Part shown: in pieces, positions 981-4,240 of the stretch
Layout: every line of letters starts with the position of its first letter
Numbering within the stretch: position 1 is the first letter of the stretch
Assembly: GCA_003245625.1 (NCBI GenBank)
Contig: QKCT01000043.1
Coordinates: 1 to 32,279 of the forward strand
DNA: 32,279 bases
Reading direction: 5' to 3'
From: Bacillota bacterium
GTDB taxonomy: Bacteria > Bacillota_I > Bacilli_A > Izemoplasmatales > Hujiaoplasmataceae
Program-made: the position numbers and the translations under genes
The notes under the pieces: model-generated
The model's input: the letters and a program-made list of their open reading frames with translations, nothing else
Told to the model about the DNA's origin: nothing
Databases searched by the model: none

Positions 981-1009
981 TTGAAATCTGAACCAACAGA
1001 TACTATAAT
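981..1009 (+). promoter_or_regulatory. Promoter of the cobalamin-riboswitch transcript
   Basis: TTGAAA (981-986), a 17-bp spacer and TATAAT (1004-1009) make a near-consensus sigma-A promoter. The predicted start, about 1015-1017, would place the hairpin at 1016-1047 at the very 5' end of the RNA. Confidence 0.8.
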
Positions 1010-1047: not shown

Positions 1048-1065
1048 ATAATTTTATATTTGCTA

Positions 1066-1206
1066 ATGAATGGGTGTATAACAGGGAACCAGGTGAAAAT
1101 CCTGAACTGTACCAGCAACCGTGATTTGGATGACTCTTCTTATTAGCCATCGGCGACGAGAAGGCGAAGAGGCATGTGAAGATTAGTCGGGAGACCTACC
1201 CATTGA
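1066..1206 (+). promoter_or_regulatory. Cobalamin (B12) riboswitch
   Basis: The conserved core of the cobalamin riboswitch class can be read directly: GGGAACCAGGTGAAAATCC (1084-1102), CTGTACCAGCAACCGTGAT following it, and AGTCGGGAGACCTACCC at the 3' side. The closing helix is AATGGGT (1069-1075) with ACCCATT (1198-1204). There is no T-rich terminator between the aptamer and the gene, so control is most likely at translation. CTAAT at 1063-1067 can pair with ATTAG at 1217-1221, which overlaps the ribosome binding site (about 1219-1224) and offers a possible sequestering helix. It should turn down the lipoprotein and S-component genes when B12 is plentiful. Confidence 0.93.
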
Positions 1207-1230
1207 TTAAATACAAATTAGGAGTAGAAG

Positions 1231-1713
1231 ATGAAAAGAAGAGTACTGGGGCTATTGCTGTTCTTATTGATCATTCCTTTCTTTATGGGATGCGATCAAA
1301 CAACAACCACAACTGCAGCAACTGCGACGACGACTGAAGAACTTACATCTGCAGTCACAACTCAAGATACCGAATCCACAACGATTTCGTATCTTGGAAT
1401 GGTTACCATCCAAATCATCACAGCAGGTGATGATCCGGAAACAACCGAAGTGGAAACAGAATACGTTTCCAATGAATTAGTGGTTGGCTATTTAGAAGAT
1501 GATACGTTATTTGGATTATTGGAAGAAAACTTTACGATTTCATATGAGACTAGCACTTATGGTAGTTATCTAACTGCAATCGATACATTGATTCCATCCG
1601 AATCGAATCAGTATATTGCGTTTTACATTAATGATGCATACGCGATGACCGGAGTTGATGCGACAGACCTCGTAGATGGTTCTGTGTATCAGTTCAAGAT
1701 TGAAAGCTTCTAA
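1231..1713 (+). CDS. DUF4430-type lipoprotein under B12 riboswitch control
   Basis: A 160-residue exported lipoprotein. The N-terminus is a signal peptide (KRR, then a hydrophobic stretch) ending in FMGC, so C21 is the probable lipidated cysteine. A Thr-rich linker follows to about residue 50. The rest (about 55-160) resembles the DUF4430 fold: a repeated beta pattern ending in YIAFYINDAYAMTG...VDGSVYQFKIES. This family is related to the C-terminal domain of the eukaryotic B12 carriers transcobalamin and intrinsic factor. GGAG at 1221-1224 sets the start. Together with the riboswitch and the adjoining S component, this suggests surface capture of corrinoids for uptake. That role is inferred, because some DUF4430 proteins lie in unrelated contexts. 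The 3' end overlaps the next frame. Confidence 0.85.
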   Translation: MKRRVLGLLLFLLIIPFFMGCDQTTTTTAATATTTEELTSAVTTQDTESTTISYLGMVTIQIITAGDDPETTEVETEYVSNELVVGYLEDDTLFGLLEENFTISYETSTYGSYLTAIDTLIPSESNQYIAFYINDAYAMTGVDATDLVDGSVYQFKIESF

Positions 1714-2254
1714 GACTGGACAAAGCATCAGAAGCATCACTTTACAAGCGATGCTTCTGGCCGTTTTGGTTACCCAGGAATATATATTACAAGGAATACC
1801 ACAGATCGGTCTAACTGCGATACTCATCATCGTGTATGCGCGTTTTTTGCCGTATAAACAGTTGATTCCCTTGTTAATAGCATATTCGTTTTTGGATAAC
1901 CTTTTAGGTGGATCATTGAATGTCATGTATCTACCAACACATATGCTAATTTGGACAGGATTTGGCTCGTTGATGAGAGCGATTCGAAACGCAGAAGATT
2001 ATGTTGTATTACTCGTCGCAACTATAGCAACATTCTTTATGGGTTTTCTGTATATTCCGGTAAACGCAATTGTGTTTCATTACAATACCTGGGAGATGGT
2101 TCGAACTTATATTTATTACGATATCCCATTTGATATTGCGCTAGCAGCAAATACAGTTGTAACTTTCTTACTGCTATATCAAACGTTGACTGAACTTTTG
2201 AGGTACTTGTTTGAAAGAATCTATAATCATGAGCAACTTCAATCACAGCTTTAA
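1676..2254 (+). CDS. ECF-type transporter S component, probable cobalamin/corrinoid uptake
   Basis: A 192-residue integral membrane protein with five or six predicted helices: about residues 22-42, 45-60, 62-80, 89-102, 108-130 and 150-175. Length and layout match the substrate-binding S components of energy-coupling factor transporters. These associate with a shared EcfA-EcfA'-EcfT module that is not encoded here. It sits in the same transcript as the B12 riboswitch and the DUF4430 lipoprotein, so a cobalamin or precursor substrate is the natural inference. The start is uncertain. ATG at 1676 overlaps the previous gene by 38 bases without a ribosome binding site; TTG at 1700 (overlap 14) would give a more typical short Lys-rich N-terminus before helix 1. 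Either would depend on translational coupling. A simple hypothetical membrane protein is the alternative reading. Confidence 0.75.
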   Translation: MVLCISSRLKASKTGQSIRSITLQAMLLAVLVTQEYILQGIPQIGLTAILIIVYARFLPYKQLIPLLIAYSFLDNLLGGSLNVMYLPTHMLIWTGFGSLMRAIRNAEDYVVLLVATIATFFMGFLYIPVNAIVFHYNTWEMVRTYIYYDIPFDIALAANTVVTFLLLYQTLTELLRYLFERIYNHEQLQSQL

Positions 2255-2270
2255 CAATAGCGAAACGAAG

Positions 2271-2299
2271 ACACATACTTGGTATGTGTTTTTATTTTT
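2271..2299 (+). terminator. Rho-independent terminator after the B12 uptake genes
   Basis: ACACATAC (2271-2278), a 3-base loop and GTATGTGT (2282-2289) form a perfect 8-bp stem followed by a T-rich run. Confidence 0.85.
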
Positions 2300-2339: not shown

Positions 2340-2361
2340 GTATATGTATGATATGCACAGT
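2318..2361 (+). promoter_or_regulatory. Candidate operator for the GntR/YtrA-type repressor
   Basis: Two direct copies, ACTGTGTATG (2318-2327) and ACTGTATATG (2337-2346), lie 19 bp apart. A third, inverted copy (GATATGCACAGT, 2350-2361) sits between the promoter and the ribosome binding site. YtrA-family regulators usually repress their own operon at such sites, and the regulator is the third gene here. The repeats are visible; the assignment to this regulator is inference. Confidence 0.45.
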
Positions 2362-2373
2362 GGGAGGGTCGTT

Positions 2374-3219
2374 ATGAATATACTTGAAATCAAAGATTTA
2401 TCGAAGAAGTATCCGTCTTTTGAATTAAAGAATGTTAATATCAGTTTAGAAGAAGGATATATTATGGGTTTTATCGGAGCCAATGGCGCCGGAAAGACAA
2501 CAACGCTAAAGTCAATGTTGAATTTAGTTCACAAAGATACGGGAGAAGTCTGTTTCTTTGGAATGTCCATGGATCAAAACGAGCGTCAAGTGAAACATCG
2601 AATTGGCTTTATGTTTGGAGATTCCGTATTCTATAGTAAGAGAAAACTGAAGGACATTACCGATGTCGTCCAACGCTTCTATGATACATGGGACAATGAA
2701 ATGTATCAAAACTTAATGGAGAAATTTCAACTTGATCCGAATAAAAAGTTAGAACAACTCTCGCAAGGTATGAAAGTGAAATACTCGATTACACTAGCAC
2801 TCAGCCATCAAGCAGAATTATTAATTCTCGATGAACCTACGACTGGGCTAGATCCTGTCGCAAGAGATGAATTGTTGGAATTGTTTCAAGAACTCATTGA
2901 AGATGGAAAAAGAAGTATTTTATTTTCCACACATATTACATCCGATTTGGAGAAATGTGCAGACTATATTACCTTTATCCGCGATGGGGAAATTGTCGAA
3001 AGTAGCACCAAAGATGATTTCTTAGAGCAATACCGAGTGGTGAGAGGATCGAAAGAGCAGTTAAAAGCAGTCGAACATGAATTGGTTGCTTATAAAACAA
3101 ACTCCTTTGGATTCAATGGATTAATGCGAGTTGAATTCTTTGAGAAGCATCCAGAATTAGATGCTGCCGCGCCATCCATTGATGATATTATGATTTATTA
3201 CGCAAAGGCGGTGAAATAA
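2374..3219 (+). CDS. ABC transporter ATP-binding protein (YtrB-like)
   Basis: A 281-residue cytoplasmic ATPase that would power the ABC-2 permease encoded next. It has Walker A GANGAGKTT (35-43), the signature LSQGM (129-133), Walker B LLILDEPTTGLD (149-160) and the switch histidine in FSTHIT (H187). The C-terminal 80 residues form the variable accessory region. The start at 2374 is chosen because GGGAGG (2362-2367) lies at correct spacing; an in-frame ATG at 2344 is ten codons upstream and lies just after the -10 element. The stop overlaps the permease start (TAATG). YtrB-type ATPases often belong to stress-induced exporters responding to cell-envelope antibiotics, but the substrate cannot be read from the sequence. 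Confidence 0.92.
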   Translation: MNILEIKDLSKKYPSFELKNVNISLEEGYIMGFIGANGAGKTTTLKSMLNLVHKDTGEVCFFGMSMDQNERQVKHRIGFMFGDSVFYSKRKLKDITDVVQRFYDTWDNEMYQNLMEKFQLDPNKKLEQLSQGMKVKYSITLALSHQAELLILDEPTTGLDPVARDELLELFQELIEDGKRSILFSTHITSDLEKCADYITFIRDGEIVESSTKDDFLEQYRVVRGSKEQLKAVEHELVAYKTNSFGFNGLMRVEFFEKHPELDAAAPSIDDIMIYYAKAVK

Positions 3220-3866
3220 TGATGAAACAATTAATGTACAAGGAATTCAAACTGTCGATCCATAAGTTCTTTTTTATAGTTCCAATTCTTACAGGAGCAC
3301 TCCTATTAATCCCACAGTGGGTCTTTCTCGTAGCGATGATGTATTTCTTCTGGATTTCCATTCCAAATATATATTCTACATACAACGCTCAGAATGATTT
3401 GACATTTTGTATGTTAATGCCAATTAAAAAAGAAGATTATGTGAAATCAAAAATCTATTCCGTAATGTTCTTAGAGGGATTATCGATTCTCTTTGGTGTT
3501 GTCTTCGCAATCTTGAATCATCTATTCTATGGAACACCGAATTTCGTCCTCGATTTGAATGCGGCATTCTTTGGAGTCGTCTTCATCATGTATGGAATAT
3601 TCAATCTTGTCTTCTTTCCTGAATATTTCAAAACCGGTTATCGTTTCGGCAAAGCTACTATCTACGGAAATGTCGTCGCAATCTTATTCGCTTTACTAGT
3701 AGAGGTATTGGTTGCAACAGTACCAACAATCCAAGTTTGGATGGAATCAAGCAACTATCTATGGTTCCAAATTGTGTTCTTATTTCTAGGAATGGTTTTA
3801 TTTGGGGTCGCAAACTTGATTGCATTTATTCAATCCAAAAAACGTTTTGAGAGTATCGACTTGTGA
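3219..3866 (+). CDS. ABC-2 type permease
   Basis: A 215-residue membrane protein with about six hydrophobic segments (near residues 17-33, 35-50, 83-103, 112-130, 148-168 and 180-205). The region QNDLTFCMLMPIKKEDYVKS (about 58-77) matches the 'LP(I/L)KRxxYVxSK' element typical of small ABC-2 permeases of the ABC2_membrane_5 type, found in bacteriocin-immunity and YtrA-linked exporters. It partners the ATPase upstream, whose stop it overlaps, and it overlaps the regulator start by four bases (GTGA), so the three genes are translationally coupled. The gene ends in TGA, one of the clear uses of UGA as stop in this window. The exported substrate is unknown. Confidence 0.85.
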   Translation: MMKQLMYKEFKLSIHKFFFIVPILTGALLLIPQWVFLVAMMYFFWISIPNIYSTYNAQNDLTFCMLMPIKKEDYVKSKIYSVMFLEGLSILFGVVFAILNHLFYGTPNFVLDLNAAFFGVVFIMYGIFNLVFFPEYFKTGYRFGKATIYGNVVAILFALLVEVLVATVPTIQVWMESSNYLWFQIVFLFLGMVLFGVANLIAFIQSKKRFESIDL

Positions 3867-4240
3867 AAAACATTGAAGTAGCGACGACATCAAAAAAGCC
3901 GATCTATCAACAATTATTTGAACAAATTTCTTCCCAAATTATCCGTGGCGAACTCGCTACGGATACTTTGCTACCATCGATTAGAACAACAGCGAAAGAG
4001 TTGCGTATCAGTGTTATTACAGTAAAAAAAGCTTGGGATGAATTGGAACAAAAGAATTTTATCTATACCATACCTGGGAAAGGATGCTTTGTTTCCAATC
4101 TAACGAAAAAAGATAAAGCTCAGATGATGGAAGAACAAATCCTTACGCGATTAAAAACGCATTTATCCTATTATAAAACCTTGGGACTTTCCAAGGAAGA
4201 TCTCATCGAGTATATCGATAAATATTACGAAAATCTTTAG
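3863..4240 (+). CDS. GntR-family transcriptional regulator (YtrA subfamily)
   Basis: A 125-residue DNA-binding protein. Residues about 10-78 form the GntR winged helix-turn-helix: KPIYQQLFEQISSQIIRGEL, LPSIRTTAKELRISVITVKKAW, and a wing ending in IPGKGCFVS. The short helical tail of about 45 residues is too small to bind an effector, which is the mark of the YtrA subfamily. These proteins usually repress the ABC operon that contains them until an envelope stress or antibiotic signal is sensed. Translation starts at a GTG overlapping the permease stop. The three ACTGT boxes at the operon promoter are its likely targets. Confidence 0.9.
   Translation: MKNIEVATTSKKPIYQQLFEQISSQIIRGELATDTLLPSIRTTAKELRISVITVKKAWDELEQKNFIYTIPGKGCFVSNLTKKDKAQMMEEQILTRLKTHLSYYKTLGLSKEDLIEYIDKYYENL

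Follow-up and report, generated by a model that had tools for sequence, protein, structure and literature searches.

The riboswitch locus and its two-gene operon

The window analysed here is a 32,279-nucleotide stretch of DNA from a Bacillota bacterium of the Izemoplasmatales (assembly GCA_003245625.1, contig QKCT01000043.1). Near its left end lies a cobalamin riboswitch followed directly by two genes, the first encoding a 160-residue surface lipoprotein with a DUF4430 domain and the second a 192-residue membrane protein resembling the S components of energy-coupling factor (ECF) transporters (Table 1). As argued below, these parts very probably form a CbrS-CbrT-type operon for the uptake of corrinoid (vitamin B12).

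The covariance model RF00174 matched over its full length (model positions 1-189) and far above its gathering score of 31.5 bits. The B12 riboswitch of the initial annotation, which had been made from the letters of the window alone, is therefore confirmed, with its start corrected: position 1066, given there, lay 11 bases inside the aptamer. The RF00174 scan found no other cobalamin riboswitch in the source genome. Since a promoter-like site precedes the riboswitch and a terminator-like hairpin follows the second gene, the unit comprises one riboswitch and two genes, as had also been proposed; a second, separate promoter-like site (2311-2339) precedes the ATP-binding cassette (ABC) gene at 2344. 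Promoter-like and terminator-like sites were called from consensus scans only. Within the unit, the S gene overlaps the lipoprotein gene by 38 bases.

Table 1. Coordinates of the features of the uptake locus, numbered from the first letter of the window
Feature	Position	Strand	Basis
Sigma-70-like promoter TTGAAA-17-TATAAT, 5' of the riboswitch	981-1009	+	11/12 consensus matches, scan only
Cobalamin riboswitch aptamer	1055-1217	+	RF00174 77.9 bits, E 9.1e-18
CCAG of loop L5, aptamer half of the putative kissing loop	1112-1115	+	L5 from the Rfam structure line
Shine-Dalgarno AGGAG, 2 bases past the aptamer	1220-1224	+	sequence
DUF4430 (transcobalamin beta-domain-like, SLBB) surface lipoprotein, CbrS-like	1231-1713	+	PF14478 34.4 bits and fold match
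Putative P13 hairpin in the first lipoprotein codons	1236-1265	+	arms 1236-1245 and 1256-1265
CUGG of putative loop L13, codons Val-Leu-Gly, complementary to L5	1246-1249	+	CTGG in 23/23 leaders
CbrT-like ECF S component, six-helix membrane protein	1676-2254	+	CbrT profile match and fold
Terminator-like hairpin closing the two-gene operon	2267-2293	+	12-pair stem, then T-rich tail

The lipoprotein has the fold of the transcobalamin beta domain

The first gene product consists of a signal peptide, Cys21, a Thr-rich linker and the DUF4430 domain, and Cys21 is kept in 23 of the 24 aligned lipoproteins. PF14478 matched residues 90-156 above its cut-off of 23.8 bits, and no further DUF4430 gene above cut-off was found in the source genome. 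An AlphaFold2 model built from 24 aligned rows had a mean predicted local distance difference test (pLDDT) score of 85, rising to about 94-98 across the domain, and forms a beta-grasp in which an inserted beta-hairpin follows the helix (helix at 93-100, strands at 103-108 and 111-117). In structural comparison this model aligned with the beta domains of the animal B12 carriers transcobalamin, intrinsic factor and haptocorrin at Z 12.3-13.2 (root-mean-square deviation 2.2-4.1 A over 95-102 residues), and with 3u7z, a DUF4430-like structure titled putative metal-binding protein, at Z 14.0, the first unrelated match following at Z 6.7. The 19 best Foldseek matches were likewise B12 carriers and 3u7z. 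The assignment to DUF4430 and the link to the animal carriers, both put forward in the initial annotation, thus hold at the level of family and fold. The window protein differs from these carriers in being a bacterial lipoprotein with 14-18% identity to them across the aligned portion and in having no toroid domain. According to its title, 5np4 is a structure of the human transcobalamin beta domain in isolation, with cyanocobalamin.

A single-sequence search of the PDB with the lipoprotein gave no meaningful match, and a lipoprotein profile (A5) matched 6xi3 (E 1.2e-4) and 3u7z (E 0.009). We rejected the 6xi3 match, which consists of short repeats of one motif, as a short turn motif matched by chance. 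At residues 108-111, many relatives outside the genus have a longer loop with two Cys residues that the window protein lacks; this loop may be a hairpin closed by a disulfide, close to where corrinoid is expected to bind.

The membrane protein is a CbrT-like S component in a genome with an ECF motor and B12 enzymes

As a single sequence, the membrane protein matched no Pfam family and no NCBIfam family of note. A profile of 46 sequences, its own included, matched one PDB sequence at E values up to 10, namely CbrT (6fnp_A, E 2.7e-11). In an AlphaFold2 model from 23 rows (pLDDT 88, predicted template modelling score 0.82), the top 19 fold matches were all ECF S components at Z 9.3-15.6, followed by a match at 8.6. 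The earlier proposal of an S component is borne out by this profile match together with the fold. Small residues are kept in the first transmembrane segment (TM1), with Ala, Ser or Gly at position 25 in 45 of the 46 sequences and Ala, Ser or Thr at position 29 in all 46; we take these two positions to be the EcfT contact motif.

A search for EcfA and EcfT genes, suggested with the initial annotation, revealed an EcfA1-EcfA2-EcfT module on another contig than the window (contig 95), where EcfT (132 bits) is adjoined by EcfA2 and EcfA1, both exceeding their NCBIfam cut-offs. The source genome, which is about 90% complete, also holds five matches to the B12-binding domain PF02310. On contig 44, NCBIfam identified lysine 5,6-aminomutase alpha and beta, methylaspartate mutase S and GlmL; contig 98 carries OraE (ornithine 4,5-aminomutase), likewise by NCBIfam. 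Between the lysine and glutamate mutase genes lies an adenosyltransferase gene (PF01923, 120.9 bits), slightly under the NCBIfam PduO cut-off (100.3 versus 108.45), and CbiC was not found in this genome. Given the mutases and the adenosyltransferase, and with CbiC not found, the cell has a need for corrinoid and the means of activating it, and probably lacks its synthesis. FecCD gave one match above cut-off (29.9 bits), which by eye resembles a metal-ion ABC permease, and one below; a BtuC is at most a candidate here.

The lysine, glutamate and ornithine aminomutase genes themselves, at 3000-10000 of contig 44 (L088) and on contig 98 (L089), suggest that B12 is required for the fermentation of amino acids.

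The gene pair and its riboswitch recur in relatives

We next consider how often this gene pair follows a cobalamin riboswitch, a survey likewise suggested with the initial annotation. The S protein matched in 82 of 150 genomes (its own included), and we examined 46 of the other 81; three further loci (L078, L079 and L080), out of 24 on named contigs, were scanned besides, and the named kin include metagenome-assembled genomes (MAGs) of Candidatus Izemoplasmatales. In all 46 genomes a small open reading frame (ORF) stands directly upstream of the S gene, ending anywhere from 5 bases before to 85 bases after the S start, and PF14478 matched at E <= 0.01 in 23 of the 29 upstream proteins scanned (the window's own and that of L080 included). 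A riboswitch lies upstream in 40 of the 46; the six negative loci are L024, L034, L040 and L053 (all four truncated at a contig end), L028 (stretch examined ends) and L043. The order riboswitch, DUF4430-like gene, S gene recurs even where the S proteins have fallen to about 20% identity and goes beyond chance.

In several relatives the S gene is itself linked to B12 genes. The gene after it is BtuR/CobO in L040 and a PduO-type adenosyltransferase in L044. At L080, where the flanking genes were named by eye, lysine 5,6-aminomutase-like genes precede the riboswitch, the lipoprotein gene and the S gene, and a PduO-like gene comes last. In the window itself, the B12 linkage consists of the riboswitch and the lipoprotein only. 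At L079 (5362-6489), in a rumen Acholeplasmatales MAG, a 375-residue ORF fuses a membrane-anchored DUF4430-like domain (by eye) to a CbrT-like S component. We found no prior description of a DUF4430-S fusion in the literature searched, and as far as searched it is new; it suggests direct contact between lipoprotein and S component.

With CbrT of Lactobacillus delbrueckii as the query, 42 of 395 genomes of the class matched at E <= 1e-5, and 30 loci were fetched from these matches. A DUF4430-type gene lies upstream in 11 of the 30 (L095-L105), as judged by Pfam scan in three, all above cut-off, and by eye in the rest. DUF4430 was also above cut-off at L106 and L116. At L107, L111 and L120 a DUF4430-like gene (called by a custom profile at L111 and L120, by eye at L107) precedes the S gene and a PduO-like gene follows it; at L120 PduO was confirmed, but the upstream gene has no PF14478 match. 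Linkage of the S gene to B12 genes in relatives thus comprises L040, L044 and L120, with L080, L107 and L111 by eye.

A kissing loop may reach into the signal-peptide codons

The aptamer ends 13 bases before the lipoprotein start codon, with AGGAG between, which leaves no space for a terminator; translation control is therefore the natural reading. We compared 23 leaders of the window's closest group. The L5 hairpin, U(A/G)CCAG, contains CCAG in all of them, and a matching CUGG sits 25-42 bases beyond the aptamer in the Val/Ala-Leu-Gly codons of the signal peptide, at +16 to +19 from the lipoprotein start codon in the window. This L13 motif was located by a pattern that itself contains CTGG, and it fell at the homologous Val/Ala-Leu-Gly place in all 23 leaders with none dropped, one having Glu instead of Gly. 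The Leu codon of the motif is CTG in 23/23, compared with 33/313 for the other Leu codons of the same genes (Fisher 1.4e-20, a value that ignores shared ancestry), 13/96 in the next 13 codons and 7% in 15 other ORFs of the window.

Around this loop a nine-pair P13 stem can be drawn, with 90.1% of cells paired among 18 distinct rows, compared with 35-71% when the register is slid; in two of the pairs both sides have changed. Its covariation score was reached by 2 of 500 shuffles; these statistics favour themselves because the register was picked by scanning registers, and the inner four pairs alone did no better than shuffles. Complementarity of L5 and L13 thus holds in every leader and the stem has modest support; we regard an L13 loop within codons as well supported by the aligned leaders and a P13 stem around it as probable. 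In sister lineages, by eye, a CUGGG loop follows the aptamer, mostly no more than about 10 bases on (though not in L038), L5 is mostly UCCCAG, and many leaders carry a T-rich hairpin ahead of the first gene; L13 there appears to be non-coding, with an apparent transcription terminator.

Kissing-loop complementarity of L5 and L13 is described for known cobalamin riboswitches (PMC11260477, PMC10653944). The window switch shares aptamer family and type of complementarity with those of P. megaterium metE, E. coli btuB, env8 and M. tuberculosis ppe2. Unlike in these, its putative L13 follows the start codon, within signal-peptide codons, and its ribosome-binding site falls between P1 and P13. A limited literature search found no prior description of an L13 inside lipoprotein codons, and a coding L13 is, as far as searched, new. 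If L13 does sit in codons, this would be a clear example of a signal peptide shaped by the structure of a riboswitch.

A hairpin of 14 pairs also lies at 1729-1759, in the first S-gene codons and just past the lipoprotein stop codon. The scan gave it on the minus strand, but an inverted repeat is present on both strands; the hairpin might tune the ratio of lipoprotein to S product.

The operon probably encodes a known kind of transporter

We take the product of L. delbrueckii cbrS to be, likely, a DUF4430 protein. CbrT of that species, predicted by Rodionov 2009 (as cited in PMC5997447), is a proven S component for cobalamin and cobinamide whose transport was demonstrated in 2018, and its gene cluster reads nrdJ-cbrS-cbrT-pduO (PMC5997447). 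The window system resembles ECF-CbrT in its homologous S component, in a partner gene directly upstream, in a shared ECF module (as a rule, the S components of group II ECF transporters share one motor among several; PMC5997447) and in the adenosyltransferase gene that adjoins the S gene in several relatives. It differs in its far diverged S protein, in placing the pair under a cobalamin riboswitch, and in having PduO and the B12 enzymes on other contigs. In Lacticaseibacillus, a lipoprotein has been listed in a proteome study as an extra part of a putative cobalamin ECF transporter, and a DUF4430 gene adjoins rtpR (PMC9963975).

Burroughs 2007 (PMC1796856) predicted B12 scavenging for the transcobalamin C-terminal clade of the SLBB superfamily. 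The window domain belongs to this same family (PF14478), with the differences that it stands alone on a lipoprotein, no toroid being found in the genome, and that its operon partner is an S component and not CbiO/CbiQ-like genes. With Burroughs 2007, CbrT/CbrS and PMC9963975 already in print, the transporter falls within an already recognised kind and the biology of a lipoprotein-S system was mostly foreseen. What the locus adds is a concrete, predicted two-gene transporter to which the 2007 proposal, that animal B12 carriers derive from Gram-positive scavenging proteins, can be tied, and one genome that combines a CbrT-type S component, the riboswitch, the motor and B12-using enzymes.

Surface lipoproteins of the BtuG type bind B12 in Bacteroides and are thought to hand the corrinoid to a transporter. 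By description, the surface-lipoprotein role would be alike here; BtuG differs in serving outer-membrane transport.

Proposed mechanism and alternatives

From the computed features, namely the riboswitch, the domain and S-component families with their folds, the ECF module, the B12 enzymes and the conserved pairing, we infer how corrinoid might be bound, transferred and transported and how the switch might act. The lipid-anchored lipoprotein would hold out its transcobalamin beta-like domain on the Thr-rich tether, catch or retain corrinoid and pass it to the CbrT-like S component, which would work together with the EcfA1-EcfA2-EcfT motor from another contig. Once adenosylated by the PduO-type enzyme, the imported corrinoid would serve lysine 5,6-aminomutase, ornithine 4,5-aminomutase and glutamate mutase. 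An ample corrinoid supply would close the riboswitch: L5 would kiss L13 in the first lipoprotein codons, and the start codon would be trapped together with the ribosome-binding site between P1 and P13; L13 docked at this distance past the start codon would block the initiating ribosome. Translation of the lipoprotein would thereby be repressed, and probably that of the S gene too, through the overlap of the two genes. The two-part scavenging system of the initial annotation accordingly stands as regards its two parts and its ECF module; the lipoprotein-to-S handover is our deduction, to which the strict gene pairing and the one natural fusion lend support.

Several observations weigh against this proposal. 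A single-sequence PDB search with the S protein gave no meaningful match and did not find CbrT, and because such searches fell short for both, the two window proteins are identified only via profiles and models. 6fnp was missing among the fold-match rows for the S-protein model, which we do not take as a difference in fold. RNAalifold run on the group leaders predicted no P13 pairs. The riboswitch scan found none at L043, despite full upstream sequence, and none at L079, with riboswitches found at L078 and L080. In 14 of the 30 loci fetched with CbrT there is, among the matches listed, an ECF ATPase-like gene (by eye) and no DUF4430-like gene upstream, so the pairing is not universal among CbrT-like proteins. 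In the source genome, a profile built from 14 large lipoproteins of relatives (A8) matched over its N-terminal and DUF4430 parts only, with no toroid. Absences from this genome are, moreover, provisional at its level of completeness.

The S component might alone bind and carry corrinoid, with the lipoprotein only docking, stabilising or binding to the cell wall. L. delbrueckii CbrT indeed binds cobalamin with a nanomolar dissociation constant and transports it with the ECF module only (PMC5997447), and the DUF4430 gene is missing from the 14 loci just mentioned. We consider this division of labour unlikely, since the lipoprotein fold matches specifically the beta domain of B12 carriers, a domain solved in isolation with cyanocobalamin (5np4), and since lipoprotein and S gene are strictly paired across the 46 genomes.

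It is more unlikely still that the true substrate is not cobalamin but a corrinoid precursor or relative (cobinamide, other cobamides or a lower-ligand base) or cobalt. Cobinamide is also taken by CbrT (PMC5997447), and the nearest solved DUF4430-like structure, 3u7z, carries its metal-binding title; yet with CbiC not found, cobalt by itself would do little for making corrins, and the genome encodes an adenosyltransferase and enzymes that use adenosylcobalamin. Least credible, to the point of being very improbable, is an S-like protein that works without an ECF motor, as proposed for BtuM: the motor genes do lie on another contig, away from the pair, but a shared motor is usual in group II transporters, and TM1 positions 25 and 29, the presumed EcfT contact, keep their small residues.

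A possible split transcobalamin

In transcobalamin, the toroid half supplies much of the binding cavity. The window lipoprotein has no alpha/alpha toroid in its 160 residues and hence is not classed as a transcobalamin. Many relatives outside the window's closest group have an operon opened by an extra large lipoprotein, a larger secreted protein that perhaps bears a toroid. Across the family, profile A8 matched the N-terminal and DUF4430 part only, with one weak exception, and its sole meaningful score against the PDB was 3u7z, via the DUF4430 part. In Pfam, 11 of the 14 large lipoproteins had DUF4430 at E <= 1, and no toroid family was among the 25 families listed for the 14; PF01122 matched in none of 13 genomes. 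In a more distant group (L095, L097 and L099) there are weak, sub-cut-off matches to Prenyltrans and squalene-cyclase toroids. For the large lipoproteins of the Izemoplasmatales type a toroid is suspected from the helical sequence pattern.

We tentatively raise, as a possible but doubtful extension of the CbrS-CbrT-type uptake operon, that the pair is a split minimal transcobalamin under a switch with a relocated, coding L13. The beta domain would act as a lid on corrinoid held by the S component, which would replace the toroid, and Val/Ala-Leu-Gly would owe its conservation to the RNA rather than to the protein, with L13 non-coding in the sister lineages.

Neighbouring genes

Upstream of the riboswitch lies a rubredoxin gene (761-919; PF00301, 87.4 bits), ended by a terminator-like hairpin at 927-954. 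Downstream, 2344-4240 is the next operon, with an ABC ATPase nearest PmtA (E 1.2e-84, under the PmtA cut-off), an ABC-2 membrane protein and a GntR-type regulator nearest PmtR. In a relative, a tetrahydrofolate (THF) riboswitch (L041, 10473-10564; 62.8 bits) lies near an ORF resembling an ECF-type membrane protein.
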